From the NCBI GenBank assembly GCA_030648645.1, contig JAUSHL010000045.1:1-34269 (forward strand): 34,269 nucleotides of DNA, read 5' to 3'. The notes below the pieces were generated by a model. The model saw only the letters and a program-made list of their open reading frames with translations, searched no databases and had not been told where the DNA came from. The position numbers and the translations under genes are program-made. Origin of the DNA: Candidatus Daviesbacteria bacterium (GTDB lineage Bacteria; Patescibacteriota; Microgenomatia; Daviesbacterales; UBA10151). Positions 7,818 to 29,847 of the stretch are shown one piece after another. Position 1 is the first letter of the stretch, and the number at the start of each line of letters is the position of its first letter.

Positions 7818-7887
7818 CTTACGACTGTTAATTAATATTTTGGATTCAAAACATTTAACGAGAGTTACAAAATCGAGTTAAATTGAT

Positions 7888-8742: not shown

Positions 8743-8749
8743 TATGCAT

Positions 8750-9013: not shown

Positions 9014-9052
9014 ATTAGTAAGATAAGACTTTTCGTGAAAATTTTCAAGACA

Positions 9053-9370: not shown

Positions 9371-9377
9371 GAGATGA

Positions 9378-9406
9378 ATTTTACCTTGAATACCCTAAAG
9401 TGTCAA
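9378..9406 (-). promoter_or_regulatory. Promoter of rplU-rpmA
   Basis: On the minus strand TTGACA (9401-9406), 17 bp, TAAAAT (9378-9383), then 7 nt to the ATG at 9370. A consensus -35, ideal spacing and no room for a 5' leader make this the best example of the leaderless pattern. It overlaps the end of the rodA/ftsW gene. Confidence 0.8.
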
Positions 9407-10473
9407 TCAAATTTTTGTTTTGCAGAAAATCTTGAAGCTGAAGCAATAAAACTTAATGCAATTAGAGTAGAGATAAGTGAACTACCCCCATATGAAAGTA
9501 AGGGCAAAGTAATACCTGTAACCGGAACAATTCCTATATTCATTCCAATATTTACTATTACCTGAAAGAAAAACATGCCAATCACACCGATAATAATGAG
9601 ACTCTGAAATCTATTGCGGATAATCGACACAATTTTTAAGGATCTGAAAAAAATCATTCCGTAGAGACTTAAGACAATTAAAGAACCAAAAAATCCTAAT
9701 TCTTCTGCAATTGAGGCAAAAATAAAATCAGTTCGAAACTCCGGTAAAAATTGCAACCTTGATTGAGTTCCCCGGCCCAATCCCCGGCCAAAGGATTGAC
9801 CGGAACCTACTGCAATCATTGATTGAATTACGTTGTACCCAGTACCCAATGGATCCGCGGATGGAGATAAAAATGTAGCAATTCTCTCTTTTTGATAACT
9901 TTTAAGAAAAAACCAAAAAACAGGAGCCATTAAAAATGTAAAAGAAGCCATAATTACAATTTTTAGTAAAGAAATATTAGCTCCAAAAAGCATTATTATC
10001 CAGATAAAAGCAATTGTCAGAGTTGTACCTAAATCAGGTTGTTTAAAAACTAGTAATATTAGAGGCAGAATATAAAGGAAACTTTTTAAAATATTTTTCC
10101 AGGTAGTTTTGTTACTAGTCCAAAATTGAGCCAGAAATAAGATTACAATTGGTTTAGCAAGCTCTGAAGGCTGAATCTGTAAAAATCCAATTGAAATCCA
10201 TCTCAAAGATCCTCTTGTTTCGATTCCGATAATAAAAACTATAATTAATAAAAGTAAAATAAAAATATAAGAATAATTAATATATGGACCCAATGATTCA
10301 AAATCGAAATTAGATAAAATAAAATAAATTGAAATTCCGATCAGAGCAAGAATAGCTTGCTGAACAGCCATTCTTGGATCGGAAGAATAAATTACTAAAA
10401 CTCCCAAAGAAATTAATAAAATTGCCGGTAAAGTGATTAAAATATCAGGTATAAAAGAAGACTTTCCACTCAT
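9403..10473 (-). CDS. SEDS-family peptidoglycan glycosyltransferase (RodA/FtsW)
   Basis: A 356-residue polytopic membrane protein with about ten helices. Family marks are GSLRWISIGFLQIQPSELAK (loop and Pro-Ser-Glu motif), KQPDLGTT, the EELGFFG helix start, and NIGMNIGIVPVTGI followed by PLLSYGGSS at the C-terminus. SEDS proteins polymerise lipid II with a partner class B PBP, either in side-wall growth (RodA) or division (FtsW). The sequence alone does not decide which, although GMNIGIVPVTG is rather RodA-like. Its ATG overlaps the ileS stop by 4 nt, so it is coupled to ileS. Confidence 0.9.
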   Translation of the reverse strand: MSGKSSFIPDILITLPAILLISLGVLVIYSSDPRMAVQQAILALIGISIYFILSNFDFESLGPYINYSYIFILLLLIIVFIIGIETRGSLRWISIGFLQIQPSELAKPIVILFLAQFWTSNKTTWKNILKSFLYILPLILLVFKQPDLGTTLTIAFIWIIMLFGANISLLKIVIMASFTFLMAPVFWFFLKSYQKERIATFLSPSADPLGTGYNVIQSMIAVGSGQSFGRGLGRGTQSRLQFLPEFRTDFIFASIAEELGFFGSLIVLSLYGMIFFRSLKIVSIIRNRFQSLIIIGVIGMFFFQVIVNIGMNIGIVPVTGITLPLLSYGGSSLISTLIALSFIASASRFSAKQKFD

Positions 10474-13367: not shown

Positions 13368-13373
13368 GGGTAA

Positions 13374-13382
13374 ATTTTAGCA
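13374..13382 (-). promoter_or_regulatory. Extended -10 box of ileS
   Basis: TGCTAAAAT on the minus strand, ending 6 nt before the ATG at 13367. It is identical to the box before tRNA-Thr. No clear -35, as allowed for TGn promoters. Confidence 0.5.
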
Positions 13383-13419
13383 GAAAATATAAAATGAAAC
13401 TAGTTGTTGAGTTCTAAAT

Positions 13420-13440
13420 ATCCAACCTCGGGGGTTGGAT
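13420..13440. repeat. 8-bp hairpin, ATCCAACC-TCGGG-GGTTGGAT
   Basis: A perfect stem with 5-nt loop, between ileS and the GNAT gene. It is the inverted version of the hairpin at 18966-18986: the loop TCGGG is the reverse complement of CCCGA, and one stem pair is changed on both sides. A terminator for the GNAT gene is possible. Confidence 0.6.
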
Positions 13441-13446
13441 AGATTA

Positions 13447-14001
13447 TTAAACTACTTTCTTATACATGTAGATATGATCTACTGGTACATCTGCATGTAA
13501 AATTCCTTCAGGAAGATTGCCATATTCCAAAAAACCAAATTTTTTATATATACCTTGAGCAATTTTATTGTCTCCAAATACTCCTAAAATTATAATTTTT
13601 AGACCCTGGAGATTTTTTTCAGCTTCTTTTATTACTACATCAGTTAAAAAAGTACCAATTCCTTTACCACGAAAATCCTTTGCAATAGAAATCCCAAAAC
13701 CTCCAATATGTTTTTCAGCTTTATCTTTTAATTCAATTCCAGAAATACCAATCAATTTATTTTCATTAAATACAAGCAACATCGTTGTTTTCTTATCTTC
13801 AAACTTTTTTAATTGACTATCCAAATATTTCTGTTCGTCTTCCAAACTAGTTTGCTCACCCTGAAATAAAATGAAGGTTTTCTCGCTGGAAAGCGTATTA
13901 ATATACTCGCACATTTGTTGTGCGTCACCTGATTGAGGATAACGCACTAAAATATCTAATTCATTTTTTATTTTTCCCTGAAATACAATTTGTCCTGACA
14001 T
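13447..14001 (-). CDS. GNAT-family N-acetyltransferase
   Basis: A 184-residue protein with the GNAT fold. The acetyl-CoA loop (motif A) is AKDFRGKGIGTFLTD, with R-G-K-G-I-G, and the C-terminal motif is NKIAQGIYKKFGFLEYG. The N-terminal region is the RimI/RimJ-like substrate half. The acceptor, amine or protein N-terminus, cannot be told from sequence. It has its own promoter (TTGAAA, 16 bp, TATAAT, 6 nt to ATG). Confidence 0.88.
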   Translation of the reverse strand: MSGQIVFQGKIKNELDILVRYPQSGDAQQMCEYINTLSSEKTFILFQGEQTSLEDEQKYLDSQLKKFEDKKTTMLLVFNENKLIGISGIELKDKAEKHIGGFGISIAKDFRGKGIGTFLTDVVIKEAEKNLQGLKIIILGVFGDNKIAQGIYKKFGFLEYGNLPEGILHADVPVDHIYMYKKVV

Positions 14002-14007
14002 AGAGTA

Positions 14008-14035
14008 ATTATAAACTTACTGCCAAAGTTTTCAA
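14008..14035 (-). promoter_or_regulatory. Promoter of the GNAT gene
   Basis: TTGAAA (14030-14035), 16 bp, TATAAT (14008-14013), then 6 nt to the ATG at 14001. Leaderless arrangement. Confidence 0.65.
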
Positions 14036-14097
14036 GCTTTGCTTATAACAAAAAGACTAATTTTTGTATCAAATGAAAGTAAGAAATAAAATTTTGA

Positions 14098-14103
14098 TAT
14101 ACT
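14098..14103 (+). promoter_or_regulatory. -10 box TATACT, 7 nt before a start
   Basis: TTGATATACTTT, where TG precedes the -10 (extended type). The ATG at 14111 is 7 nt downstream. The same TTGATATACTTT string occurs before the methyltransferase at 31328. Confidence 0.55.
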
Positions 14104-14110
14104 TTAACTT

Positions 14111-14509
14111 ATGAAGTTTATAGCATATACCACCAAAGGATTGGAATTTGTTGCTGAAAAGGAGATTAAAGCTCATATTTCTGATGCAAAAATTATCGAG
14201 GTATCTGACAAAAGAATTATTTTCGAAAGTAATACAGGTTTTAATAAACTGATTGAATTAAAAACTGTTGATGATTTAGGTTTTCATGAGAATCTCTTTA
14301 TCATATTTGCAAATGACTCAAACTTTTGGACTGGAAAGGCTACTGAGGATTCAATATATAAATTCTTTAGAGGAGGTGTAGAACTTCAAGGAACGATAAC
14401 AAAACCTACGGGGAAAAGGGATCATGCAATAGAGCTTAGAGGAAATTATATGGTAAAGTGGGAAGAAATGAATGAAAAATTAAAATACTGGGCTTCTTAC
14501 ATAGAATAA
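14111..14509 (+). CDS. THUMP-like small protein
   Basis: A 132-residue protein. The opening MKFIAYTTKGLEFVAEKEIK and the following VSDKRIIFES resemble the start of THUMP-domain RNA methyltransferases (TrmN/Trm14, RlmL type), in which the GLE..A..EI segment opens the RNA-binding module. The usual Rossmann methyltransferase domain with its NPPY motif is absent. The last 35 residues (TKPTGKRDHAIELRGNYMVK) are polar and unfamiliar. It could be a stand-alone RNA-binding domain or a truncated enzyme. The start is supported by an extended -10 seven nt upstream. Confidence 0.6.
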   Translation: MKFIAYTTKGLEFVAEKEIKAHISDAKIIEVSDKRIIFESNTGFNKLIELKTVDDLGFHENLFIIFANDSNFWTGKATEDSIYKFFRGGVELQGTITKPTGKRDHAIELRGNYMVKWEEMNEKLKYWASYIE

Positions 14510-14514
14510 TACCT

Positions 14515-14561
14515 CTCAATACTCAAAGGAGAACCAAGCTAGTATTTAAGCTCCTATTGAG
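14515..14561. terminator. Hairpin between convergent genes
   Basis: CTCAATA (14515-14521) pairs with TATTGAG (14555-14561), and inside this GGAG (14528-14531) pairs with CTCC (14551-14554). It lies between the ends of the THUMP-like gene and the Cas4-like gene, so it could serve both directions. No U-tract. Confidence 0.4.
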
Positions 14562-15219
14562 CAGTTTTATTAACATATGAGCAATAGCTACACTCCTGCG
14601 AGGAATCAGGAATTTTTCCATCTAAAATCTTTCTAGCCTCTAATATCTTATCCTCAACCCAACTATCATCACCATCATAAGGTTGAACCTTAATATCAAA
14701 GCTTAATTTTCCCTTTGCAAAACCATTGTCTTTATTGACTCTACAATATACAAAATAGCCACGTTTTAAAACTTTGAAGCCATTTTGTCTCAAGAGCCAT
14801 TGATAAATCTCCATCTGGCGTTTGTAACTATCATAAAGTTCACCTTCCTTAGCTCCTGAAGCCTTATAATCAATCACCATCAAGTTTCCTTTGGAATCTA
14901 CCCAAACATCATCAACTGCACCAAAAACAAGACAATCAGTCTTTTTATGATGATACTGAATTCCAGTAAAATTATGTCTCCATTTATCAATATCTTCATG
15001 CATAAAGGGAATAGCATCTATACCTTCTCTTGTGATTAGCCAATGAGCTGTACCATTCTTCCTGTGTTCATCAAATTCTTGCTTCAGAAGAAAATCCACA
15101 GCATTATTGATTGTGTAAGGTGCCCCGAATGGTCTAGCTATACCTTTTCCAGCATAAAGCCAGAAACATCTGGGACAGTCAAATAGTAATTCAATTTTTG
15201 ATCTTGATAGTTTAATCAT
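14554..15219 (-). CDS. Cas4/RecB-like PD-(D/E)XK protein with four-Cys cluster, copy 1
   Basis: A 221-residue nuclease-fold protein. CPRC (15-18) near the N-terminus and CSYC near the C-terminus make the four-Cys pattern of iron-sulfur Cas4/AddB-like exonucleases. Catalytic motifs are GAVDDVW (Asp) and LMVIDYKAS (D-x-K), followed by the QMEIYQWLLR helix typical of RecB-like nucleases. A DNA end-processing role is likely; no CRISPR locus is in the window. It is paralogous to the broken gene at 18119-18917. The start has AGGAAGAAG upstream and overlaps a 13-codon leader frame by 8 nt. Confidence 0.8.
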   Translation of the reverse strand: MIKLSRSKIELLFDCPRCFWLYAGKGIARPFGAPYTINNAVDFLLKQEFDEHRKNGTAHWLITREGIDAIPFMHEDIDKWRHNFTGIQYHHKKTDCLVFGAVDDVWVDSKGNLMVIDYKASGAKEGELYDSYKRQMEIYQWLLRQNGFKVLKRGYFVYCRVNKDNGFAKGKLSFDIKVQPYDGDDSWVEDKILEARKILDGKIPDSSQECSYCSYVNKTAQ

Positions 15220-15253
15220 TCTTCTTCCTATTTGGATTGTAGTATTGTGACAT
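15212..15253 (-). CDS. 13-codon leader frame overlapping the Cas4-like gene
   Basis: ATG at 15253 reads MSQYYNPNRKKND and stops at 15212, 8 nt inside the nuclease gene (ATGATTAA contains both start and stop). TATAAT (15261-15266) stands 7 nt before this ATG. The first seven codons match the true N-terminus of the paralog at 18917 (MSQYYNP). So this is either a relic of the original N-terminus cut off by a frameshift or a leader peptide that couples translation to the nuclease. Confidence 0.45.
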   Translation of the reverse strand: MSQYYNPNRKKND

Positions 15254-15260
15254 TATTTAG

Positions 15261-15266
15261 ATTATA
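15261..15266 (-). promoter_or_regulatory. -10 box before the leader frame
   Basis: TATAAT on minus, 7 nt from the ATG at 15253. It lies in a 28-bp segment that the paralogous upstream region at 18918-18953 lacks. Confidence 0.45.
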
Positions 15267-15287
15267 CCCTTTTTTCTTCATATTTAT

Positions 15288-15317
15288 ACTTTAATCCATA
15301 ACTTACCCGAACGTCAA
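15288..15317 (-). promoter_or_regulatory. Promoter shared with the paralogous gene
   Basis: TTGACG (15312-15317), 18 bp, TAAAGT (15288-15293). The string TTGACGTTCGGG and the downstream TTAAAGTATAAATATG are shared with 18918-18953, where the same promoter drives the second copy with a 6-nt gap to its ATG. Confidence 0.5.
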
Positions 15318-15371
15318 TACGGAGTTGTTCAAGTAGTAATTATACCGATGCTTATAACAGATATTTAGAGT

Positions 15372-15377
15372 TATAAT
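15372..15377 (+). promoter_or_regulatory. -10 box of ftsA
   Basis: A perfect TATAAT, 8 nt before the ATG at 15386. It decides for this start over the GTG at 15380, which would be only 2 nt away. Confidence 0.55.
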
Positions 15378-15385
15378 GAGTGTCC

Positions 15386-16627
15386 ATGACGGAAAAAGAC
15401 AGGGTTTTATGTAGTGTTGATATTGGCTCCTCTAAAATTGTTACTCTGATTGTATCTGTTGGAGAAAATGAAAGAATTAATCTAATAGGAGCATCATCTG
15501 TTCCTTCTAAAGGCATTAAAAAAGGTCAAATAGTGGATATTGAAAGTGCTTCTCAAGCTATTATCAAAAGCCTGGAAGGAGCAGAGAGGATGGCTGGAAT
15601 ATCCATATCTTCAGCTTATGTATCAATCAGTGGCACACACATTGAAAGCACAAATACCCATGCTGTAATTGCAGTATCCCAAAGAGAATCAGATATAGAT
15701 TTAAAAGACTTGGCAAGGTTAGATAGAATTGCTAGAGCCATTTCCTTACCCCAAAAAGAGATACTTCATGCTTTACCAGTTATGTATACCATTGATGGAC
15801 AAACAGGCATTAAAAATCCTCTTGGAATGTTTGGAAATAGATTAGAAGTAAAAACTCACATTATTGCAGGATCAACAATTGCCATTAGTAATCTGGTTAA
15901 ATGCTTTAGCAGGGTTGGGGTAAATATAGAGGAGATTGTATTTTCAGGTATTGCTTCATCCAAAGCAGTTCTGACTGAAACAGAAAAAGCATTAGGAGTG
16001 GTTTTAATTGATATTGGGTATGAAACAACAGCAATGACAGTATTTTTTGAAGATGCTCTAATTTATTCATCAGTTATACCAATTGGAGCTAGGTTTATAA
16101 CTAACGACATGGCTGTAGGTTTAAAAGTTTCTCTGGAATCAGCAGAGAAAATTAAACATAAATTGGCAGATTATAAAGAAGATGTACTTGATCTTAAAGA
16201 GTTGGGTATAACGGAAGATACAGATAAAATTTCAATTAAATTTACCAGAGATACCATTATGAAAGCAAGAATTAGAGAAATCCTTGAACTGGTAAAAAAA
16301 GAAATTAAAAAGAGCGGGTTTGGAAATATTGTTCCTTTTGGTGTTGTGATGTGTGGAGGTGGAGCTTTAACTGCTGGAATCCTTGAACAATCAAAGCCAA
16401 TATTGGGTTTTTCAGCAAGAGTAGGCGAAATTGAAGGTTTTAGTGGTCTTTCAGAAGAGATTGATTCCCCAGCCTTTGCCACAGCTTCAGGACTAATTCT
16501 TTATGCAGTAGAACAATCTGCAAATAGTAAATCGGAGAACACTCTTGGTTTTAATAAACATTTACCTGGATTAATAAAAGATTGGTTTAGTAAATTAATA
16601 CAATCAATAAGGTCTGTATTCAAATAA
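15386..16627 (+). CDS. ftsA: Cell-division protein FtsA
   Basis: About 413 residues, an actin-like ATPase that anchors FtsZ filaments to the membrane. Phosphate 1 is CSVDIGSSKIV near the N-terminus, the 1C subdomain follows (SAYVSISGTHIES), phosphate 2 is VVLIDIGYETTAM, and the adenosine motif is VMCGGGALTAG. The last helix (LPGLIKDWFSKLIQSIRSVF) is the amphipathic membrane-targeting sequence. A GTG six nt upstream opens the same frame, but the ATG fits the -10 spacing better. The usual ftsQ/ftsZ neighbours are not present: the next gene lies on the other strand. Confidence 0.93.
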   Translation: MTEKDRVLCSVDIGSSKIVTLIVSVGENERINLIGASSVPSKGIKKGQIVDIESASQAIIKSLEGAERMAGISISSAYVSISGTHIESTNTHAVIAVSQRESDIDLKDLARLDRIARAISLPQKEILHALPVMYTIDGQTGIKNPLGMFGNRLEVKTHIIAGSTIAISNLVKCFSRVGVNIEEIVFSGIASSKAVLTETEKALGVVLIDIGYETTAMTVFFEDALIYSSVIPIGARFITNDMAVGLKVSLESAEKIKHKLADYKEDVLDLKELGITEDTDKISIKFTRDTIMKARIREILELVKKEIKKSGFGNIVPFGVVMCGGGALTAGILEQSKPILGFSARVGEIEGFSGLSEEIDSPAFATASGLILYAVEQSANSKSENTLGFNKHLPGLIKDWFSKLIQSIRSVFK

Positions 16628-17678: not shown

Positions 17679-18122
17679 CTAAATTTCTTGCTTCATCTCA
17701 GTAACAACAGAAAGAAAAACACCTTTAACGGAACTGTCGATTCTCAATTTAGTGTCAAACGAGTGATACCAAAAGCAATTATATTTTTCATCAATTTCAA
17801 GTTGAGCATCTTTCTTAATATAGACATAGTTTCCCATACCACCAGAGTAGTTAATGAAAAGATTCGCATTTTGATTAATCCGCTCTGACGTAGCATCGTA
17901 TGAATCTTTATCTATGGATACATTGGTTTCATAAGTAATTAGATTATCTTTGTCGTCTAGTAGATATATGAGAAGCCCACCTTCATTGCCCATAGCCCCC
18001 GTGGGAGAAATTTCACAATAAATCACTTTATCAAAATCGATGGAATCTAAATTTTCAGCTGTAATGATTAAGCTTTCTGGAAAAACTATCGGTTTTTCTG
18101 ATGTTCCTCGATATAATTTCAT
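17679..18122 (-). CDS. Orphan protein, 147 residues, coupled to the broken Cas4-like gene
   Basis: Begins MKLYRGTSEKPIVFPESLI; predicted beta-rich, soluble, with no membrane segment. It overlaps the end of the Cas4-like pseudogene by 4 nt, so it was built as the second gene of that operon. A Gly-rich stretch (YSGGMGNYVY) lies in the middle. No family recognised. Its coupling suggests it may have worked with the nuclease; the frameshift upstream could now reduce its translation. Confidence 0.65.
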   Translation of the reverse strand: MKLYRGTSEKPIVFPESLIITAENLDSIDFDKVIYCEISPTGAMGNEGGLLIYLLDDKDNLITYETNVSIDKDSYDATSERINQNANLFINYSGGMGNYVYIKKDAQLEIDEKYNCFWYHSFDTKLRIDSSVKGVFLSVVTEMKQEI

Positions 18123-18917
18123 AAAACTATTTTAGCATTTTTTACAGCTTTCCGATATTTACAAAAGTCACAATCGTTACCACTATCAGGAAGTTTTTCT
18201 GACTTTAAACATTCAATTGCATCTAGTACTGTTTGTTCAACCCAAGATGCGTCTCCAATATAGGGGAGAATTTTAATATCAAATTCCAATTTTGAATCAA
18301 AGGCTTCTTTGTCAGTATTACCATTACAATAAACAAAGTATCCGGTATTAGAGACTTTAAAACCATTCTTTCTAAACAACCACTGATATATTTCCATCTG
18401 ACGCTTATACCCAATCTGCCAATCAGCATCTAACGTAACCTCTTCTTCTTTTGAAGTAGCTTTATAAGCGGAGCTTGTCAGCGACGCTTACAGCTTGCTG
18501 ATAATCCACAATGATAAACTCTCCATCCGGTTTGACCCAGACATCATCAACACCACCGGTTATGACAATATTTTCACCATCAACTTTAAAAGTAATACCG
18601 GCTCTTAAAGAATCCCGCCATTCATTCATTTTTTCATGAGATAGTGGTACTGCATCAATGTCGTATTTTTTCATCAGGGGATGAGTTGTACCATTAGCAC
18701 GATGAATATCAAACTCTTTCTTTAAAAGTTTATCTACAGCTGAATTAAGAGAAAATGGATATCCAGGCGGTTGAGCAACTTCAAGTTTTCTGTCCAGATA
18801 AAAACATCTCGGACAAGCAATAAAATTATCAATTTTGCCCCGACTTAATCTAAACTCCTTTTCAGAATCTTTTTCATACATATTCCTTGTTCTTTGGGGA
18901 TTATAATATTGTGACAT
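18119..18917 (-). pseudogene. Cas4/RecB-like PD-(D/E)XK gene, copy 2, broken by a palindromic insertion
   Basis: Two frames, 18917-18462 and the frame reaching 18119, together encode one protein like the gene at 14554. The first has CPRC near the N-terminus, GGVDDVW and FIIVDY; the second has YKRQMEIYQWLFR, YFVYC and the final CDFC. Between them 37 extra nt (33 plus a 4-nt duplication) follow the codon for the Tyr of the D-Y-K motif, destroy the catalytic Lys and shift the frame. Taking them out restores VDYKATSKEEE in frame. The gene had the leaderless promoter TTGACG-18-TAAAGT-6-ATG. Confidence 0.85.
18468..18500. mobile_element. 33-bp palindromic insertion with ATAA target duplication
   Basis: GCGGAGCTTGTCAGCG...CTTACAGCTTGCTG is an imperfect palindrome centred on AGCG-A-CGCT. 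It is flanked by ATAA at 18464-18467 and 18501-18504. Removing it with one ATAA restores the reading frame of the nuclease gene. It has no coding capacity, so it must have been moved in trans. Confidence 0.75.
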
Positions 18918-19777: not shown

Positions 19778-19782
19778 AGCTC

Positions 19783-19905
19783 CCTCGACCTTACGGTCGG
19801 GGTATCTTCTCCCTATGCTTCGTCGGGAGCGAAATTCCTCCGAAGCAGAAAACACTCCGCATTCATCCGCGAGCTTGCGCTCTCGGTTTTCTGCGAAGGG
19901 GGATA
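19783..19905. repeat. GC-rich multi-hairpin element
   Basis: Three nested or adjacent hairpins: CCTCGACC/GGTCGGGG (19783-19802); CTCCC...GGGAG (about 19810-19829); and a long arm CCTCC-GAA-GCAGAAAAC paired with GTTTTCTGC-GAA-GGGGG (about 19837-19902), where the two GAA form a symmetric inner loop. Composition is unlike the AT-rich flanks. It may be a terminator plus mobile repeat. It has no ORF of note. Confidence 0.5.
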
Positions 19906-20002
19906 AATAACATCCACTATGTATATATTTGTATATACTTAGTTATTGCCAGATGATACAGCTCAGATTCCTCTCCAGCAAGTAAGATCTTCAAATCTAA
20001 CT

Positions 20003-20065: not shown

Positions 20066-20542
20066 TTATGCTTTAATAACTCGATCTAATTTAAGCAAAT
20101 CATCTCTATGAATCATAGTATTTCTGCCAAAAGTTTTTGTTTGAATATTATTCATAGCAATAGTTTTAAATAATTCAGCTTTACTTATCCCCAATATATC
20201 TGTAGCTTCTTTAAGTGTAACGTGTTTTAGTTTTTCTTCTTTTTTTCCTTTTCTGGTAAGACCTGCCATCTTTTTATATTCCGCATAACTCATTTCTTCC
20301 CCCTCATAAAATACTTTTACCTTTTTACTTCTTCCTATAAAATAATCATCCGGAATATAGCGTATTTCCTTATCATCTACAGCAAATCTTTTTCTGGTAT
20401 TGGAAAACTGGACTATAATTTCTTCTTCAAAAAATCCACGTACCTGCCCTAACCCATATTTTTTGGAATAAATCGTTTCTCCGTATTGTAAATCTTTAAA
20501 ACTTTCCAAAAGCGGAGAACTATCTAAATCAAATGTTTTCAT
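20066..20542 (-). CDS. Tudor/CarD-like plus helix-turn-helix protein, last gene of the defence operon
   Basis: About 158 residues from the ATG at 20542 (a second ATG at 20557 adds five). The N-terminal half has GETIYSKKYGLGQVRGFFEEEIIV and a following QFSNTRKRF strand, the beta-barrel pattern shared by CarD and the C-terminal Tudor-like part of UvrD/PcrA. The C-terminal half (LKEATDILGISKAELFKTIA then RNTMIHRDDLLKL) is an excisionase/MerR-like DNA-binding helix-turn-helix. It overlaps the previous gene by 14 nt. A likely role is a DNA- or polymerase-contacting accessory or regulator of the restriction operon (inference). Confidence 0.65.
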   Translation of the reverse strand: MKTFDLDSSPLLESFKDLQYGETIYSKKYGLGQVRGFFEEEIIVQFSNTRKRFAVDDKEIRYIPDDYFIGRSKKVKVFYEGEEMSYAEYKKMAGLTRKGKKEEKLKHVTLKEATDILGISKAELFKTIAMNNIQTKTFGRNTMIHRDDLLKLDRVIKA

Positions 20543-20996
20543 GATTTTGTAATGCAAGTTTCTTCAAGCGTTTATTAATTGCGTCCTTGATAGTGGAAAG
20601 TTCAGCTGTATCATCTTCGCAGAGATTATCCAAGAACTCATCAAAATTGTCGAATATAATATCCCGTAAATTATCGTTAATATAACTATCTATATTAGGT
20701 AATTCTTTCCATTCTTGTGATCCATAATCCCAATAAATTTTATTAAAGGAGTAACCGTAAGGCTTTTCTAGTTTGCTTAACATTGCCTCCACGATATTTA
20801 TTGAGAACCCTGAATCAAAATATAAACTTTTCAGAAATCGTAATTCTTCAATCTCAAATCCCTCATATTCTTCTTTGCCTGTTGGGTTAAAAGATAATAA
20901 GTTTTCTTTGAATAATAGATCTGCCTGATGTAAACTACACCCACTTTCAGTCAATTTATGTTTAAATAAGTCTGTTTGTCTATTTGGTACTATCAT
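20529..20996 (-). CDS. Orphan protein with MerR-like features, third gene of the defence operon
   Basis: A 155-residue acidic protein. FEIEELRFLKSLYFDSGF followed by IVEAMLSKLEKPYGY resembles the helix-turn-helix and wing order of MerR-type proteins but is not conclusive. The C-terminus is rich in Asp and Glu, then ends in a basic helix (NKRLKKLALQNH). It starts 4 nt after the methylase stop and overlaps the Tudor/HTH gene, so its place in the operon is firm. No catalytic motif is visible. Confidence 0.6.
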   Translation of the reverse strand: MIVPNRQTDLFKHKLTESGCSLHQADLLFKENLLSFNPTGKEEYEGFEIEELRFLKSLYFDSGFSINIVEAMLSKLEKPYGYSFNKIYWDYGSQEWKELPNIDSYINDNLRDIIFDNFDEFLDNLCEDDTAELSTIKDAINKRLKKLALQNHENI

Positions 20997-21000
20997 AAAA

Positions 21001-24000
21001 TCAATTTTTACCTAAATTATCTGATATAAATTTTTCATAATCTTCTCTAGTCGTCTTAAATTCTTTGTCTACTATCAATACCTCTTCATAAGTGAGATCG
21101 TAGAGTTTATAAACAAGCTGATCAATTTGTGATTCAAGATTTTTAGTATCTGCATCTTTGTTTTGTTTTTTGAGAGTTAGAATTTGATCAACAAGGGATT
21201 CGATTTTATTTTTTAGTGATTTTTCAACATTATCTAATTTCGGAATTGGTAATTGACTTAAATACACTCCGTTAAATGAAATATAATTACCAGACAAATT
21301 GTTTGATGCAAACTTCTTTGTATACCAATAATTTAATAGCTGGCTATTCAATAAACCAAGAATAAATATATTCAACGCATAATGCTCATCATCGTTAAAA
21401 ATGATTGAGTAAAGGGAAACATTGGCATAACCACATTCATCAATAGCAGCGGTCAATTTTAAAGCAGTACCCTTTATGGTCACTTTTGGATTTATTTTAA
21501 ATACATCCCATTTATTAACCCCAATTAAGCTATTATCGAACGTAATAATTGCATCTCTATATTTATTTTTTGCAACTCTTATCTCACCGCCCCAGCTTAT
21601 TGCGAAGCGGCTAACATTTGAGACATTGATTAGTTTGAGTTGGTTGTTCTGTAGATTGCCATCAAATTCATTGATCAACTTTGGCCACTCATAATACAAA
21701 CTTATCGCAGGGGTTCCTGTTAAAACTTTTGATATTTCTCCCAATCGAAAACAATTGCTTTCAATCTTATCAAAGATCGGTCTTTCTTCATTATTTATTT
21801 CAATATCAAAAATTTGATTCTTATTAATTAAAAAATTGCTTTGCTTAATTTTATTCCATTCTATATTTTTAGGTTCTACCCATATTTTTAAAGACTTAAC
21901 ATTTACAAAATAATTATCTTCTGGTAATTCCTTTTTAAATATACTAACAAGCGAATACACAGAAGCAGTTTCAAATATTTTGATTTGCGAAAGATCCAAC
22001 AATGAGTATATTTTAAAATTCTTTAAAATTAATGGTCTTAACTTATTACCATATCGCTTAGTCAGATACTTATTGGGCGTAATATAGCTAATCAGCCCTG
22101 CTTTTTTAGATAAGTTGAAAGCGCGTTCAAGAAAAGGAACGTACATATCATAATTACCAAAAACTGTTACATAATGATCTCTAATAAAATTATCATAAGT
22201 TTTGTGAATACCACTCACTCTTACATATGGAGGATTTCCAATCACTATATCAAACGCCTGAACTCCATGCATTAATTCCGGATCATAAAATTCAGATGAC
22301 GAACTAATATCAAACGGTTTATAACTTTTTAACTGCTGTGTTTTTTTGTTATCAAAAAAACCTTCTTGCTGTGTAAGTTTTAAATAATCTTTTTGAAGCT
22401 TTTCTTTTTTTATTTTGCTGCTTGTCTTAAAATAATCGTCACGAATAGTGATCAACTTATCTTTAAAATCATGATCAGTGAAAAATGTTGCCTGCTTATT
22501 ATCGTCGAGCGGAATTAATGTATTGGCACAAACAAATTTAAATTCAAGATTTGGAAGCGGTTCAACTTTTTCTACATCTGGAATATCCACGATAATTGAG
22601 AGCCAAGCTCGAAGGCGTGTGATTTCAATGGCGGTTTGCTCAATATCTACCCCATATAAGGATCGTGATAAAATAGCACGCTTTAATCCAGAAACATCTT
22701 TTTCAAATTTTGGATCAAGACGAGAATACACTTTTACTAGTAAATGAAGCATTCCCATTGGGAATGCGCCTGAACCGACTGCGGGATCAAGAATAAGTAT
22801 TTCATCTAGGGCGTGTATAACATTATCTTTGCCTAAATTATTACGCCACTTGTCTCGCTTATTTTGATCTTGGTCACGAAATATTGTTTCAGGTAATCGT
22901 AGCAATTCGTCTATGCGACTATCCCGCTCAGGCGAATCGGTAATTTTGGTTTTTAGATATTCAATCAGTGACTGCTCGCACATATAACTCACGATTTCTC
23001 GCGGTGTGTAGAACGCACCAGTAGCCTTCTTTCTGTTGTTACCTGTATTTTCATCAATCTGCTCGGCAAGTAAACTTTCAAAAATACGCCCTAACATTTC
23101 TGGATCAATAGCCACATGCTGAAATTCAGGACTACTTTCATCAACTGTAAAATTATATTTGTTTAACGTTTCGAAAAGATCCTTAAAATATCCATTGGGA
23201 AAAGTTAATTTTGGATCACCACAAAAATCAGTATTACTCTTGTCGAAAAGACCACCGTTTAGATAAGGAGTGATCTTGTCAATATTGTTTCTTTCTAACT
23301 CACTGGTATTTAGTACTTCAAAAAAGAGTTTTTCTAATTTTGTTTTATAGTATTCCTTTTGTTTTTCCGAATCGGGTACCGAAAAATAATCAATGTTGGC
23401 ATTGACTAAGTTTTTCTTTTTCAAAAACCAGATAAAAAGTAAACGACCAATCAAACGAGTGGTGAACATCACTGACGGCTTACGACCGAGATCTTTTTCC
23501 AAATGGTGAACCAAAATACTGAAATGCTCGACCAATTCAAGGTAGAATTTGCGATTGATTGGTTCGAAGTTAAAGGCACTCCAGAGTACTGTGTGATATG
23601 CAGTTTTTTCATTTAATAATGAGACATTATTATCCTTAATTTTTATGACATTTGTTAAAATTTCGCGGTCAGTGATAGATAAATGATTATGCAATTCCAG
23701 AACACGCAATTTATAGTTATTGGAAACAATAATATATACTCTGTCACATGATTCGGGAACAACCAAATCAATTCCCACATTTTTGTGCTGCATTGTAGTA
23801 GAATCTTCAAAATTATCGGCAGCACCAGCGATCCAAGATAAATTAGTCTTGCTGGGTTTCTTCATCCAATATAGTTTTATTTCAACAGCCTTCTCATTGG
23901 AATGACGAGCCTCATATGCTGCTGGGTTATTAACGGTTTCAAAAGCGGTCACAAAGCGTGAGGCTTCTGCTACAATACGAGGATCCTGCCATAATTTAAA

Positions 24001-24120
24001 TCTATCAGTGTCAATTCCAAAAATACTCGTGATGACCTTACAAGTTTCAACGGCGGTTTGCCAATTATGATTAGCAGCTAACTGTAATAACTGTGCTGAT
24101 AATGTGTCTAGCTCTTCCAT
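21001..24120 (-). CDS. Eco57I-like adenine DNA methyltransferase with specificity region
   Basis: A 1039-residue type IIG/ISP-like protein. After an N-terminal domain (1-130) of uncertain fold comes a helical part, then the N6-adenine methylase core: GAFYTPREIVSYM (369-381), SAM motif LDPAVGSGAF (444-453) and catalytic NPPY (629-632). A TaqI-like target-recognition region (about 780-980) and a coiled tail (to 1010) follow. The N-terminal domain has GIDLVV...VYIIVSNNYKLRVLE but no clear D-x-n-(D/E)-x-K, so it may lack nuclease activity. Its ATG overlaps the end of the helicase gene by 13 nt. The two proteins likely form one restriction-modification complex. Confidence 0.9.
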   Translation of the reverse strand: MEELDTLSAQLLQLAANHNWQTAVETCKVITSIFGIDTDRFKLWQDPRIVAEASRFVTAFETVNNPAAYEARHSNEKAVEIKLYWMKKPSKTNLSWIAGAADNFEDSTTMQHKNVGIDLVVPESCDRVYIIVSNNYKLRVLELHNHLSITDREILTNVIKIKDNNVSLLNEKTAYHTVLWSAFNFEPINRKFYLELVEHFSILVHHLEKDLGRKPSVMFTTRLIGRLLFIWFLKKKNLVNANIDYFSVPDSEKQKEYYKTKLEKLFFEVLNTSELERNNIDKITPYLNGGLFDKSNTDFCGDPKLTFPNGYFKDLFETLNKYNFTVDESSPEFQHVAIDPEMLGRIFESLLAEQIDENTGNNRKKATGAFYTPREIVSYMCEQSLIEYLKTKITDSPERDSRIDELLRLPETIFRDQDQNKRDKWRNNLGKDNVIHALDEILILDPAVGSGAFPMGMLHLLVKVYSRLDPKFEKDVSGLKRAILSRSLYGVDIEQTAIEITRLRAWLSIIVDIPDVEKVEPLPNLEFKFVCANTLIPLDDNKQATFFTDHDFKDKLITIRDDYFKTSSKIKKEKLQKDYLKLTQQEGFFDNKKTQQLKSYKPFDISSSSEFYDPELMHGVQAFDIVIGNPPYVRVSGIHKTYDNFIRDHYVTVFGNYDMYVPFLERAFNLSKKAGLISYITPNKYLTKRYGNKLRPLILKNFKIYSLLDLSQIKIFETASVYSLVSIFKKELPEDNYFVNVKSLKIWVEPKNIEWNKIKQSNFLINKNQIFDIEINNEERPIFDKIESNCFRLGEISKVLTGTPAISLYYEWPKLINEFDGNLQNNQLKLINVSNVSRFAISWGGEIRVAKNKYRDAIITFDNSLIGVNKWDVFKINPKVTIKGTALKLTAAIDECGYANVSLYSIIFNDDEHYALNIFILGLLNSQLLNYWYTKKFASNNLSGNYISFNGVYLSQLPIPKLDNVEKSLKNKIESLVDQILTLKKQNKDADTKNLESQIDQLVYKLYDLTYEEVLIVDKEFKTTREDYEKFISDNLGKN

Positions 24121-27100
24121 AAAGTTTTATTGTAAAAATTTGTCAGTTGTTTTATTTCACCTGCGATTTGTGGTGCTGGTTCTTGTTGTTGTGGTAATAA
24201 TAACTTTAATTGAGCAACATATTCTTTGTGATCCGCATTATTTCTCACAGCTGAATTGATGGCTGTTTTCAATTGTGTAACTCTTTTTTTCGTAATGACG
24301 TTACGAGTTCTGAATAGTTGCGCCAGTTTTTCAATATCAATTCCATTCCACTCATACTCATTCTGCACCAATTCAAGTACCTTACGCTCTGAATCTAGAG
24401 TGCGGGTGGAAATATTTGTGTCGTAAAGGATAAAATCTTCTGCTTTTTCCTGAAGTTTTGATGAAATTTGAGTACTTTCTGGAGGTAAAGTGGCAAAAGT
24501 TCTAGTCTTGTCTCTACTTCTAATTTTGCGTAATGCAACACCGTCCAACATCGCGCCATAGTTACCTTCTTGGCTATACAAAACCACATTTTTTGACTGG
24601 CCGTTATCGAATGTGACATGCAAAAAATGTAAACTATAAATATCAGCATTATGCAACATCCCCCATTTACCATCTGGTATATATTGAATTGCTAATTTTT
24701 CTGCAACTGTGGCATTTTTAGTAAAGTCGTGCAAGTCATTAATAAATTCATCATCGGTAAAATTTTCTGCTTTAGATTCCATAGATTTATACGCCTCAGA
24801 CGCAGTAGCAACGTTAGAACTATACACACCAGTAAAGTCTAGGGGATTTGCTTCTTCGCCCAAAATAGAGGAGTCTGTTCCAATAGTTGCCTTAATCATT
24901 TCAATTTTATCTTGCAATGTTTTATGCAACTTCAAAAAACGCTCTACTTGGGTATGAGGTATCATATTTACAACTTGAACAAGATTGTGATCTGATCCCA
25001 GTCGATTGACTCTACCATTACGTTGAATCATACGCACAGGATTCCAATGCAGATCGTAGTTAATCACAATCGCACAGTCTTGTAAATTCTGTCCTTCTGC
25101 TAAAACATCTGTTGAAACAAGATAATCTATTTGAGTTTCCTCTGGTTTCAGATTGTAGTTTTTTGCTTTTGGAGCAAATAGTTTAGCACTATGTATTGCG
25201 TTGTTTTTATTACTGCCTGAAACAAACCCATGCCTATTTGAATTATCTCCAAAATAATTTTTTTGCTGTATCTTTTCTTGTATTAAATTTACAGTATCTG
25301 TAAAGAATGAAAAAGTTAGTATTTTTGCATTTGGATTATTTTGTTTAATTTTTTCTACTTGTGCAAAATATGTAGTAATTTTTGTATCATCTTTATCTAA
25401 TATGTCTGCCAGTATCAGCAATTCTTTCAATACCAGCTTTTCACTAGCGATATCTTCTTTTAAAGCTACAACATTATGAGTAGATTCTGATACATCTTGT
25501 GCTCGTGATTTTATCATCTCAATCACACCTGGATCATCCAAATTTAGTTCTAATTGCTCACCATCTTCAGCTAAATATTCATCTTCAATGTCATCTATAT
25601 CTCCCAACGATACAACTTTATTTTGGTTCATAAGTATCGACTCGAATAGGGTTAATCTTCTCTGATATTTTTCTATAGACTTTTTAAGGGCTTTTGATGA
25701 AGATTCTAACCTTTTCATAAACACAGTACGGATAATTCCATATAAACTAATTTGCCTAGATAAGCTGACAGCTAAAGACCCTTTAATATCCAAATCAATT
25801 CTATTTTTACCATAAACTTCATGGTGGTACATGTCATAGCGATATGGAACTAGAGACAGTGAAAGTATTACTTTATAAAGCAATTCAATAATACCTTCAC
25901 TTCCAATTTCTTCTATTGGTTTATCTGTATCTGCTTGGCGACGTGGGTGAAGCAATATATCCGTCGTGTCGGCAAGTTTTTCTAATGTTTGCGAGGATAT
26001 ATTCTTTAAGACACTAGACATATCTGAAGAGGCGACTGTAATATGATCTAAATCAAACTTAACATTACTCATTTCAACCTTTGGGAAAGTTCGTAATACT
26101 CCATCTATTTCAACACCCCCAAATTCTCGCTCAATTCCATCGCGCGTATTTCGCACAACAAAAGCACGCATTATTGGATCTATATACTCTCGCACTTCTT
26201 TATATACCTCAAATAATCTTTTATCCTGTTCCTCATCGCTTATATTCTGTGATCGTTTTTTTACTTGATTTATACGTTTTTTAATATTTTCTATTGCCTC
26301 ACTAAAAGAAACTTGCCTGATAATACCTTGGTCATTTTTAAAATTTATGGGCAGAATATCTTGATCTCCCGCTGAACCCAATAATATTTGGTTTGACAAA
26401 TCAGCTAATGAGTTATTGATTGGCGTTGCAGTAATAAGAAGTGTATGGCTATCTATGTTATTACCAATCCATTCAGTTAGTTGTTTGTATCGAACTGAAG
26501 AACTACTGCGTAAATTGTGTGCCTCATCAATTACATATAATCCTATTGGAGCATATTTATCAATTGTCATCATATTTTCTATTTCGACTTTATTTTGTAG
26601 AGATACTACTTGAACTTCATACATTCCTGCTTCTGCTAACTCTTCTCGCCATTGCAATACAAGTGAGGCCGGAGATATTACTACAACGCGCTGTTTTAAT
26701 ATTTTGTACTGCTTAATAACACCAATAGCACTAATTGTTTTGCCTAGACCGACAGAATCGGCTAGCATTGCAACGCCAAATTTACTCAGTCTATATAACA
26801 ATTGTTTTACGTTTCTTTCTTGAAAAGCAGCTAAAGTTTTCCCTGTAATTTTTTCAATTTGCCGATCATCTTTTAGTTGATCTTCATACCAAAAATGTAG
26901 AGTTTTTATATACATTTCATAAGGACTGTACACTAAATCTCCATGGTTTGAACCACTGACCAATTCGATAAACTGACCTGACCAATCAATACAACCATCA
27001 TCTGTCCATACTTCTTCAAACCAAGACAAATGACCATGCTCTTGCGTTTCATTTTTTGGATTAAACTGAACTACTCGCTGATCATCTTCGCCAGCATTTA

Positions 27101-27563
27101 ATTCACGATTGGTAGTAAGCCCGTTTTTGGTAAAATTTGATGATCCAATAATTCCTAGTGCAGTTTCTGATTCAAAATTTCCAAAAATATAACATTTAGC
27201 ATGCAAAAAGGCTATCTTAAATACTTTTACTTCGAGGATTTTGTTATCTACTAACTGTTTTAAATCTTTTACTGTTAAATTTAAATTGCTGTCAATTTTC
27301 AATCTTTGCAAGTCTTCAAAAATGTCCTTATCTGGAAAATCTGGTTCCACCTCGTTTAACTGGTGACGTGGAATTAACGGTTCACGTCCAATAAGTAAAC
27401 GAATTTTTTTATATTTCTTAAGATACGGTAATAGTAGTGCTGTAGCTTCAAGATCCCAATAACCCGTTGCAATAGAAATTTGATCATAATTACCACTAGC
27501 TTCTATCAATGTGTCTAGTAATTTTATTCTTTCGTTATCAATAATCTTAGGAAACTTTTTCAT
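24108..27563 (-). CDS. PLD-nuclease plus SNF2-type helicase, first gene of the defence operon
   Basis: A 1151-residue protein. The N-terminal phospholipase-D-like nuclease domain (about 1-165) has the single HKD motif HAKCYIFG (121-128) and GSSNFTKNG (140-148). The SNF2/RapA-like motor has Walker A ADSVGLGKT (268-276), DEAH (346-349) and LLITATPINN (375-384). Its second RecA lobe has STDVLAEGQNLQD and RMIQRNGRVNRLG (about 830-870). In DISARM class 1 a SNF2 helicase works with a methylase, and in type ISP enzymes nuclease, motor, methylase and TRD are fused. Here the nuclease and motor are in one chain and the methylase and TRD in the next. It is likely the ATP-dependent restriction subunit. 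Confidence 0.9.
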   Translation of the reverse strand: MKKFPKIIDNERIKLLDTLIEASGNYDQISIATGYWDLEATALLLPYLKKYKKIRLLIGREPLIPRHQLNEVEPDFPDKDIFEDLQRLKIDSNLNLTVKDLKQLVDNKILEVKVFKIAFLHAKCYIFGNFESETALGIIGSSNFTKNGLTTNRELNAGEDDQRVVQFNPKNETQEHGHLSWFEEVWTDDGCIDWSGQFIELVSGSNHGDLVYSPYEMYIKTLHFWYEDQLKDDRQIEKITGKTLAAFQERNVKQLLYRLSKFGVAMLADSVGLGKTISAIGVIKQYKILKQRVVVISPASLVLQWREELAEAGMYEVQVVSLQNKVEIENMMTIDKYAPIGLYVIDEAHNLRSSSSVRYKQLTEWIGNNIDSHTLLITATPINNSLADLSNQILLGSAGDQDILPINFKNDQGIIRQVSFSEAIENIKKRINQVKKRSQNISDEEQDKRLFEVYKEVREYIDPIMRAFVVRNTRDGIEREFGGVEIDGVLRTFPKVEMSNVKFDLDHITVASSDMSSVLKNISSQTLEKLADTTDILLHPRRQADTDKPIEEIGSEGIIELLYKVILSLSLVPYRYDMYHHEVYGKNRIDLDIKGSLAVSLSRQISLYGIIRTVFMKRLESSSKALKKSIEKYQRRLTLFESILMNQNKVVSLGDIDDIEDEYLAEDGEQLELNLDDPGVIEMIKSRAQDVSESTHNVVALKEDIASEKLVLKELLILADILDKDDTKITTYFAQVEKIKQNNPNAKILTFSFFTDTVNLIQEKIQQKNYFGDNSNRHGFVSGSNKNNAIHSAKLFAPKAKNYNLKPEETQIDYLVSTDVLAEGQNLQDCAIVINYDLHWNPVRMIQRNGRVNRLGSDHNLVQVVNMIPHTQVERFLKLHKTLQDKIEMIKATIGTDSSILGEEANPLDFTGVYSSNVATASEAYKSMESKAENFTDDEFINDLHDFTKNATVAEKLAIQYIPDGKWGMLHNADIYSLHFLHVTFDNGQSKNVVLYSQEGNYGAMLDGVALRKIRSRDKTRTFATLPPESTQISSKLQEKAEDFILYDTNISTRTLDSERKVLELVQNEYEWNGIDIEKLAQLFRTRNVITKKRVTQLKTAINSAVRNNADHKEYVAQLKLLLPQQQEPAPQIAGEIKQLTNFYNKTLWKS

Positions 27564-27775
27564 ATTTATTTCAAATATTATATACTCATTCAGATCAATT
27601 TTAGCACTTCACTAAGTTCAGTGTAAACACTTCGGCAAGCTCAGTACTATAGCACTTCGGTCCTTCGATTCACAGAGCTCACTCAGGATTATAACTCACT
27701 CACTTCAATAAAATTTCAGTGTAAGCACTTCAATACTTCACTTCAATGCTTCAGTGCAAGTATTTTTACTGTTAT

Positions 27776-27798
27776 CCTCCCAGACGTCCTCTGGGAGG
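27776..27798. repeat. 9-bp hairpin CCTCCCAGA-CGTCC-TCTGGGAGG
   Basis: A perfect stem with loop CGTCC. The core CAGACGTCC is shared with hairpins at 27838-27868 and 28709-28738. Confidence 0.65.
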
Positions 27799-27837
27799 CT
27801 ACTACTTTCAATTCCATTCAATCCAGGTGGACGCCTG

Positions 27838-27868
27838 TAGCTTCCTCAGAGGACGTCTGAGGAAGCTA
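27838..27868. repeat. 13-bp hairpin TAGCTTCCTCAGA-GGACG-TCTGAGGAAGCTA
   Basis: A perfect 13-bp stem with loop GGACG, the reverse complement of the CGTCC loop next door. The third relative (28709-28738) is imperfect. Confidence 0.7.
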
Positions 27869-27902
27869 ATTTTAAAACACCTTATCTAAACCACGCAAAA
27901 TA

Positions 27903-27929: not shown

Positions 27930-28304
27930 TCAAGAATTAAATTTGATATTTATCCCATTTTTGGTAACAGAAATTAAACATCCCTTAGACTGAGACTTAG
28001 ATATATTTCTAAGAACTTTACAAATTTTAAGATCAGATTCTGTATCTGTTAAATTTGTAGATAGCGATATCACTGATGTAGAGTTCTTATTAATGAGTGG
28101 TTTAAAATGTTTTGTATTAAATACCACTGGTAATCTTCCTTCTTTTTCCGCCATTTGAAAGATAACTTTGTCAGATTTACTTTTATTTTTTGTATTAACA
28201 ATATGTAAAACATCATGTAAACTATTTAGTTTTGGATAGGAGACGGGAAGATGCAAACCTTCATCCAGAAGAAGCTTATATCTTTTGAACTTTCTCGAAC
28301 TCAT
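27930..28304 (-). CDS. DUF5615-like (PIN-fold) toxin
   Basis: A 124-residue protein. YKLLLDEGLHLPVSYPKL near the N-terminus fits the L-L-D-E-x-L opening of PIN-like DUF5615 proteins, and VVFNTKHFKPL fits the second acidic/TKD region, although the expected Asp there is replaced (TKH). It overlaps the DUF433 gene by 29 nt, the usual antitoxin-toxin layout. Such pairs are read as toxin-antitoxin modules; the toxin would act on RNA. The missing Asp may mean weak activity. The gene ends 3 nt after the left direct repeat. Confidence 0.65.
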   Translation of the reverse strand: MSSRKFKRYKLLLDEGLHLPVSYPKLNSLHDVLHIVNTKNKSKSDKVIFQMAEKEGRLPVVFNTKHFKPLINKNSTSVISLSTNLTDTESDLKICKVLRNISKSQSKGCLISVTKNGINIKFNS

Positions 28305-28512
28305 TCAACCCTGCTTTCATTAGATAAGCTATTGTAAATTGAATTTTCTTCTCATCTACCCAGGAATATTCATCTTTAAGGGCTTCCAATGAATGGCCTT
28401 GTTTTATAAGTTCATAAATTCGCTCCACAGGAATTCTTGTACCAGATATCACAGGAGTACCACCAAGTATTTCTCTATCCACAGTAATATATTTTTTTAA
28501 AGCTTTAGACAT
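28276..28512 (-). CDS. DUF433-family antitoxin
   Basis: A 78-residue protein with the DUF433 signature: IVD-like opening ITVDREILGGTPVISGTRIP, then the helix-turn-helix VERIYELIKQGHSLEALKDEYSWV and the DEKKIQFTIAYL helix. DUF433 proteins pair with DUF5615 toxins and bind DNA to repress their own operon (family knowledge). It precedes and overlaps the toxin gene. A TACAAT box 8 nt before the ATG serves as -10. Confidence 0.85.
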   Translation of the reverse strand: MSKALKKYITVDREILGGTPVISGTRIPVERIYELIKQGHSLEALKDEYSWVDEKKIQFTIAYLMKAGLNEFEKVQKI

Positions 28513-28920: not shown

Positions 28921-29847
28921 TTATCCCTTAATTAACTTAAAACTAACTTTATATGTAAAAAAATCAATACTTTGCGTAACTGCTAATGCTCTTCTCATAC
29001 GGATATCGTCTTCCAACGCGATGATTACTCCCTGGACAGTTTGTCCTTTTTCTGCAAGTTCTTCTTTTACATAACCCATATATCTTTGAATTTGTCCAAT
29101 AACTGCATCGCTCGCTCTTCCTTTTTTTAGTTCAACTACTAATAATTCTTTTTTATCTTTACTTATTGCTAAAATGTCTATTGGTCCTGTATCGCTTGGA
29201 TATTGTTGACCAACAAGTTCTCCTTCTTCTTCAAAAATATTATATTTTTTACCTAATTCTGTGTGTTCCCAATTCTGCACTAAAAAATCTTCAAGGTGCA
29301 TTTCCAAAGCAAAAGTTGATGGGTCTTCAACAGACTCATCAGTTGAAATAATAGTTGGTGGGCGATCTCCAGCAATAAAATTCTCTATCTCTTCGGCATA
29401 TTGAGTAATATTGCTTACTGTCCCGATCGATCCTGCAGAATTTTGGAGAGGTTGACTCATTTGAGATCTTTCAATCGTCTTTGGAAACCAGCGAACATCA
29501 CGACGATGAGGAAGAATCTCACCCTTATGATAGCTATAATTTGTAGTAAGTTCTCCAACAAAATAGGAGCCTTTGTTATTTGGACATAACACAATATCAT
29601 TTATTTGAAGCCCTTTGCATATTGTCCATAACATTCCACAAGCAAGACCGGCAGCAACCTTTGTTTTATCAAGATGCTTTTCAAGAAATATGGGGATGAA
29701 CTCTTTGTTAAAATCCCGCCAATTTTCTGGAAGTTTATTACTCAAATCCATATCTAATCCAAAATCAGCACCAACGAAATTACCTGTATGTGCTTCCTCT
29801 GCATATAAACTTTTGCGACCAAGCATAATTCGATAGTAGTTTTTCAT
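28921..29847 (-). CDS. Restriction-type nuclease: PUA/EVE-like reader plus NucS-like PD-(D/E)XK domain
   Basis: A 308-residue protein. The N-terminal half (about 1-125) has INDIVLCPNNKGSYFVGELT and HRRDVRWFP, the pattern of PUA/EVE-like modified-base readers. The C-terminal half (180-300) is a DUF91/NucS-like nuclease with Glu in LEMHLEDFL, Asp224 in GPIDILAIS and E239-x-K241 in LVVELKKG, followed by the helix IGQIQRYMGYV. It should cut DNA, perhaps guided by base modification. It was in one operon with the methylase whose stub follows 3 nt later. The partner's loss raises the question how the host is protected. Confidence 0.8.
   Translation of the reverse strand: MKNYYRIMLGRKSLYAEEAHTGNFVGADFGLDMDLSNKLPENWRDFNKEFIPIFLEKHLDKTKVAAGLACGMLWTICKGLQINDIVLCPNNKGSYFVGELTTNYSYHKGEILPHRRDVRWFPKTIERSQMSQPLQNSAGSIGTVSNITQYAEEIENFIAGDRPPTIISTDESVEDPSTFALEMHLEDFLVQNWEHTELGKKYNIFEEEGELVGQQYPSDTGPIDILAISKDKKELLVVELKKGRASDAVIGQIQRYMGYVKEELAEKGQTVQGVIIALEDDIRMRRALAVTQSIDFFTYKVSFKLIKG

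Follow-up and report, generated by a model that had tools for sequence, protein, structure and literature searches.

A recurrent PLD-SNF2 nuclease-motor and methyltransferase gene pair followed by two orphan genes in a Candidatus Daviesbacteria genome

The two genes at the core of the locus analyzed here have a described counterpart on the Lactococcus plasmid pLd8, where orf33 and orf34 match them protein for protein and domain for domain, coding for a PLD-SNF2 protein and an Eco57I/IIG-type methyltransferase (MTase) with a TaqI_C domain, and were annotated by the same reasoning (PMC6098607). A mechanistic precedent is given by CglI and NgoAVII, which use a PLD nuclease and an ATPase (PMC4267653, PMC5737866). 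These enzymes and BceSIV comprise a PLD nuclease, a DNA-dependent ATPase and a separate methyltransferase, and their cutting is ATP-dependent; in the members that have been characterised, nuclease and ATPase are two different chains, but the CglI work of 2014 also mentions more than 95 PLD-ATPase fusions (PMC4267653). SauUSI, an endonuclease that translocates with ATP and shreds DNA, targets methylated DNA with its own recognition domain (TRD) and needs no methylase partner (PMC7913695). Type ISP enzymes such as LlaBIII and LlaGI, which are single polypeptides with nuclease, motor, MTase and TRD, provide a mechanistic analogue for motor-driven cutting (PMC7049714). In the BREX-related (BR) type-2 systems, an HKD nuclease lies N-terminal to a Swi2/Snf2 helicase and is accompanied by an N6-MTase in which the TRD is nested (PMC12839542). 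DISARM class 1 also brings together an SNF2-type motor, an N6-adenine MTase and a PLD nuclease.

The window, a stretch of 34,269 nts that makes up an entire contig of a Candidatus Daviesbacteria genome (0.96 Mb, 95% complete, 45 contigs), carries four open reading frames (ORFs) on the minus strand between positions 27563 and 20066 (Table 1). The layout given in a preliminary description of this DNA was recovered: all four ORFs are present, genes 1 and 2 overlap by 13 nts (24120/24108) and a gap of 4 nts separates genes 2 and 3 (21000-20997). The reported overlap of 14 nts between genes 3 and 4 is obtained when the internal ATG at 20542 is taken as the start of gene 4, giving 158 aa, but grows to 29 nts with the mechanical TTG start at 20557, giving 163 aa. 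The lengths of ORFs 1 and 2 are far above chance expectation. The two small ORFs have an in-frame codon bias of +0.17 and +0.30 per codon, nearly all other frames being around 0 or below; because these scores resemble those of long genes, genes 3 and 4 are probably real, protein-coding genes. The spacing suggests that the four genes may be carried by one transcript; promoter-like and terminator-like sites at the operon were not above chance.

Table 1. Coordinates of the four genes, of other features of the window and of features in related loci.
Feature	Sequence	Coordinates	Strand	Details
Gene 1, PLD (HKD-type) nuclease + SNF2/SF2 motor	window	24108..27563	-	1151 aa, ATG start
Gene 2, Eco57I-type N6-adenine DNA methyltransferase + C-terminal TaqI-like TRD	window	21001..24120	-	1039 aa, ATG start
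Gene 3, putative orphan accessory protein	window	20529..20996	-	155 aa, ATG start
Gene 4, putative orphan accessory protein	window	20066..20542	-	158 aa, ATG start
Overlapping DUF433 and DUF5615 genes, toxin-antitoxin-like	window	27930-28512	-	78 aa and 124 aa
PADLOC PDC-S02 match	window	28921-29847	-	full length, 548 bits
PDDEXK_1/Cas4-like gene, apparently split	window	18119-18917	-	ORFs 18462-18917 and 18119-18397
PDDEXK_1 ORF	window	14554-15219		uninterrupted
GC-rich palindromic repeats	window	19780-19930; 27760-27880		short, intergenic
Pair compared with window 21001-27563	L008 (Patescibacteria bacterium)	601-7074		51% identity to window
DUF3644 over two overlapping ORFs	L017	3786-4882	-	each ORF matches its half of the family
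TaqI-like specificity gene and Mpi-family invertase after the pair	L012 (Lactococcus pJM1F)	5425-10230		specificity gene on opposite strand
Hypothetical gene and Mpi-family invertase after the pair	L014 (Lactococcus pUCCL629A)	11683-16365		

The domain calls made earlier for the two large proteins were borne out. In Pfam, gene 1 matched PLDc_2, RE_NgoFVII, SNF2-rel_dom and Helicase_C, with a PLD-like match at residues 23-165 (domain about 1-200) and an SNF2/helicase match at about 246-856 (motor about 240-900), in agreement with its best PADLOC profile, C3a139 'HKD+Snf2'. Aligning six proteins, among them five relatives that are 34-52% identical to the window, showed that the PLD site (H121-x-K123, N143, E154), the Walker A motif GLGKT (272-276), the DE[AS]H box (346-349) and motif VI (Q847-R854, in the stretch IQRNGRxNRxG) are kept; from what is known of PLD nucleases and SF2 motors, we take these residues to be catalytic. 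Gene 2 matched Eco57I (124 bits), N6_Mtase and, at residues 834-959, TaqI_C; its DPAxGSGA (445-452) and NPPY (629-632) motifs are invariant in six aligned proteins. Profile searches detected no nuclease domain in gene 2, as had been remarked from the sequence, and no separate TRD in gene 1; they assigned no domain to the first 180 residues of gene 2. Since gene 1 has no TRD of its own in these searches, gene 2 is the presumed recogniser of the site to be cut.

The closest relative of the window at this locus is the pair of the Patescibacteria bacterium L008, and the divergence between the two is very uneven along the genes. In gene 1, the PLD part is 76-92% identical and the motor about 45%; in gene 2, the N-terminus is about 40% identical and the MTase core about 85%. 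Within the MTase, identity is 70-96% across most of the catalytic core, drops to about 20% over residues 750-950, which hold the TRD, and rises again to 52-66% in the C-terminal tail; this drop is the pattern that a swapped recognition domain would leave. At fourfold sites, conservation is poor (17 of 52 in the PLD part and 51 of 112 in the MTase core), yet the amino acids of these blocks are about 84% identical, so selection keeps the proteins of genes 1 and 2. A mosaic formed by recent exchange was also considered, but is weakened by fourfold sites that are near saturation in both blocks, and recent exchange is thus not shown. Exchangeable specificity is echoed in Lactococcus. On plasmid pJM1F, a gene of opposite orientation, annotated as a TaqI-like specificity domain, comes after the pair, and an Mpi-family invertase comes next, an arrangement that suits a recognition domain open to swapping; plasmid pUCCL629A has the same invertase, with a hypothetical gene in the place of the spare TRD. 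The spare TaqI-type gene and the invertase point to a probable phase-variable, or switchable, specificity of the restriction pair in this genus.

We then compared the locus with the described systems. Two features of pLd8 orf33/orf34 are found in the window: an N-terminal HKD/PLD domain fused to an SNF2 motor, and an adjacent co-directional Eco57I-type MTase with a C-terminal TaqI-like TRD and, according to profiles, no nuclease of its own. The homologues of the pLd8 pair on Lactococcus and Lactiplantibacillus plasmids have the same gene order, with overlaps of 14-17 nts, and are about 32-36% identical to the window. Pairs of this type, compared by published description for pLd8 and by sequence for its homologues, lack the 155-aa and 158-aa genes. 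CglI, NgoAVII and BceSIV share with the window the PLD nuclease, the DNA-dependent ATPase and the separate methyltransferase; in the window, however, nuclease and ATPase form one chain, the ATPase is of SNF2 type and recognition probably passes through the TRD of the MTase. The locus was therefore not placed in this class, on a comparison that covered its characterised members. The SauUSI nuclease is of the PLD/HKD type. Gene 1 resembles SauUSI in that nuclease and translocating ATPase lie in one chain, and differs in having a methylase partner.

Other assignments were rejected on gene content and architecture. The earlier statement that the layout departs from DISARM and type ISP stands: PLD is fused to the motor, the genome gave no MZB match, and two chains are present where a type ISP enzyme would need one. 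In the 95%-complete genome, no match was found to MZB (for DrmB, MZB/DUF1998), to a DUF499 (BrxC-like) ATPase or to PglZ; as the assembly may lack about one twentieth of the genome, these genome-wide absences are provisional. Gene 1, the only SNF2-family match of the genome, scored 143.7 bits with DrmD against a cut-off of 610, and gene 2 scored 53 bits with DrmMI compared to 449 for REase_MTase_IIG. DISARM membership was thus set aside for want of an MZB/DUF1998 gene and with DrmD and DrmMI under the family cut-offs, and membership of BREX or BREX-related systems for want of DUF499 and PglZ. The BR type-2 HKD-Snf2 helicase is a cousin of gene 1 by architecture; a BR type-2 system was nevertheless rejected because the genome has no DUF499, the ten window proteins searched (four of the operon and six neighbours) gave no Pfam match to DUF3780 at E <= 1, and the TRD is C-terminal rather than nested.

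The pair is not confined to this genome. With both proteins required at phmmer E <= 1e-20 in one script, 26 non-redundant loci were found including the window (25 others), a number that is not a frequency since the loci were selected for their similarity to the pair. Both genes are on the same strand in every locus, most pairs abut or overlap, and the order is nuclease-motor then methylase in 20 of the 26, two of these 20 (L028 and L101) having an extra gene in between. The nuclease motif HxK...(G)S(S/N)N occurs in all 26 (for L008, from the alignment). Hosts include Patescibacteria, Lactococcus and Lactiplantibacillus plasmids, cyanobacteria, Deinococcus, one archaeon and viral contigs. The pairs of two other genomes of the phylum are 40-41% identical to the window, those retrieved from Lactococcus and Lactiplantibacillus plasmids 34-36%, and those on cyanobacterial, Deinococcus and archaeal plasmids and on viral contigs are more distant. 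The pair is rare in the genomes drawn, with two occurrences besides the window in 286 genomes of the phylum and none besides the window in 281 genomes of the class.

Combined, these comparisons indicate that genes 1 and 2 are a strong, recurrent and widespread two-gene unit, as judged from sequence, and one that is already described. The sequences show the domains with their motifs intact, a pairing that keeps one direction across loci, a TRD that varies and strong constraint on the proteins. Of these, motifs and constraint are indirect evidence of function; no report of activity of a PLD-SNF2 and MTase pair was found in the literature searched. The locus had been proposed as an uncharacterised variant of ATP-dependent restriction. 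The restriction-like core of that proposal is well supported by domains and motifs, whereas the pair itself was known (PMC6098607, PMC4267653), and novelty shrinks to two orphan genes behind it. With the window, the range of this compact and little-characterised pair for ATP-dependent restriction now includes a bacterium with an ultra-small genome.

What lies beside the pair varies from locus to locus. The slot taken by genes 3 and 4 in the window holds a 348-aa DUF3644 protein in L008, a DUF3644 gene in L017 whose division over two ORFs suggests a frameshift, and proteins of 362 aa and 1240 aa, w/o significant profile matches, in L018. Other slots contain Fic, KilA-N, SMC/AAA ATPase, DprA-like or DUF262 proteins, or a nucleotidyltransferase with SLATT or AbiEii-type genes; in Lactiplantibacillus, no co-directional third gene directly follows the pair. 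DUF3644 is a domain of the HEPN superfamily, most families of which are predicted RNases (PMC3710099). In an ORF search near the pairs that covered 30 retrieved loci, overlapping copies counted, single-sequence comparison found homologues of genes 3 and 4 at none of the 25 other loci. A positive control failed, as a search with the L008 DUF3644 protein missed its split counterpart in L017 although Pfam finds both; absence of distant homologues of genes 3 and 4 is therefore not proven, and very diverged ones could escape such a search. The idea that the small genes are conserved neighbours of the pair has thus largely failed. One alternative, possible though on the whole unlikely, is that genes 3 and 4 are passengers with no relation to the pair, or that they form a module of their own, of abortive-infection or toxin-antitoxin-like kind, inserted behind it. 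In its favour, two relatives carry DUF3644/HEPN in this slot and further loci carry other defence genes there, and a DUF433/DUF5615 toxin-antitoxin-like pair lies just upstream in the window. Against it, the overlapping start and the near-abutting gap suggest co-translation with the methylase, and no similarity to known toxins or antitoxins was seen in either small protein.

Searches beyond the pair loci led to the same picture. No homologue of the 155-aa or 158-aa protein was found in the 286 genomes of the phylum, save weak matches to the generic helix-turn-helix (HTH) part of the latter, and none was accepted in the 281 class genomes, which were searched with the 155-aa protein only. Weak matches to the 155-aa protein (E about 0.003-0.01) were discarded as chance, lying mostly inside larger ORFs or containing a stop. 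Plasmids and phages (tblastn) and viral contigs (peptide pattern search) yielded no homologue of the small proteins. Genes 3 and 4 would thus be lineage-specific accessory genes behind an ordinary two-gene core. They are separate genes and not, as had been written, fused into the operon.

The labels given to the small proteins fared unequally. 'MerR-like', for the 155-aa protein, found no support from any tool: Pfam gave no MerR match up to E 10, and the AlphaFold2 model (pLDDT 39) is unusable. The model of the 158-aa protein has a mean pLDDT of 72, with block means of 78-92 over residues 101-158. Its C-terminus superimposes on the DNA-binding domain of pSK1 Par (Z 8.6, rmsd 1.1 over 52 residues), followed by RacA (Z 7.8) and by MerR-type regulators, among them NmlR (Z 7.3); the Pfam profile HTH_17 scored 17.8 bits against a cut-off of 27. 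The HTH half of the Tudor/HTH label is plausible, and the modelled C-terminus is plausibly a DNA-binding helix-turn-helix of the MerR/ParR type; the HTH fold being common, the match supports DNA binding rather than a family. The Tudor half is weak, being below every cut-off: DUF3553 scored 14.4 bits against a cut-off of 20.3, and the N-terminal barrel gave a weak Foldseek match to the UvrD C-terminal domain (E 0.26). The list of PDB structure matches was filled by the C-terminal HTH, with no barrel match listed, and is therefore uninformative on the barrel. A small beta-barrel at the N-terminus is possible, and its Tudor-like character doubtful.

The earlier suggestion that the small genes supply a regulator or loading factors to the operon is a guess. 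Restriction systems often carry transcriptional controllers. The HTH-type C-terminus of the 158-aa protein would suit such a role, and the small genes may, with rather low probability, delay expression of the nuclease as type II C proteins do; they are, however, last in the operon and not ahead of the nuclease gene, and the 155-aa protein has no identified fold. In a further reading, both small proteins are essential members of a system of four components: the Tudor/HTH protein would attach to DNA or to the motor and permit cutting, taking the place of the Tudor domain that BREX-related helicases carry and that was lost in type-2 BR (PMC12839542). If true, PLD-SNF2 restriction would here have a new layer of control or licensing, in the form of a Tudor-type reader and a DNA-loading HTH supplied in trans, parts with which pairs elsewhere dispense. 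The 4-nt gap and 14-nt overlap, the plausible DNA-binding C-terminus and the weak barrel hint are consistent with this reading, but we consider it very unlikely: no homologue of either small gene lies beside any of the 25 other pairs, the Lactiplantibacillus pair has no third gene of the same direction directly after it and the Tudor assignment is under every cut-off.

We consider it probable that genes 1 and 2 form an ATP-dependent two-component restriction-modification system to which genes 3 and 4 are lineage-specific accessories. The TaqI-like TRD would let gene 2 recognise a specific site, and host DNA would be marked by methylation of an adenine. On unmarked foreign DNA, the methylase-TRD would presumably recruit and activate the SNF2 motor, which would translocate along the duplex, driven by ATP, and position the fused PLD nuclease domains; these would cut the DNA, probably as a dimer. 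By analogy with CglI, SauUSI and type ISP, the order of recognition, ATP hydrolysis, translocation and PLD cutting is the most likely one. Genes 3 and 4 would most likely be regulators or DNA-binding helpers in a slot of variable content. The pair can thus be seen as a small, mobile (plasmids, viral contigs) and portable core that carries very different accessory genes. Genes 3 and 4, the two orphans, are candidate new regulators or effectors, of unproven importance.

Several neighbouring genes of the window deserve mention (Table 1). The DUF433 and DUF5615 genes overlap each other. A strong full-length match to the candidate defence profile PDC-S02 has a NucS/YhcG-type PDDEXK C-terminus, which gives this part of the window the look of a small defence island. 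On the other side of the operon, a PDDEXK_1/Cas4-like gene appears to be split, as if by a frame change or a small insertion; another PDDEXK_1 ORF of the window is uninterrupted. Finally, the short palindromic GC-rich repeats flank the operon on both sides and are possibly small mobile or structured elements.
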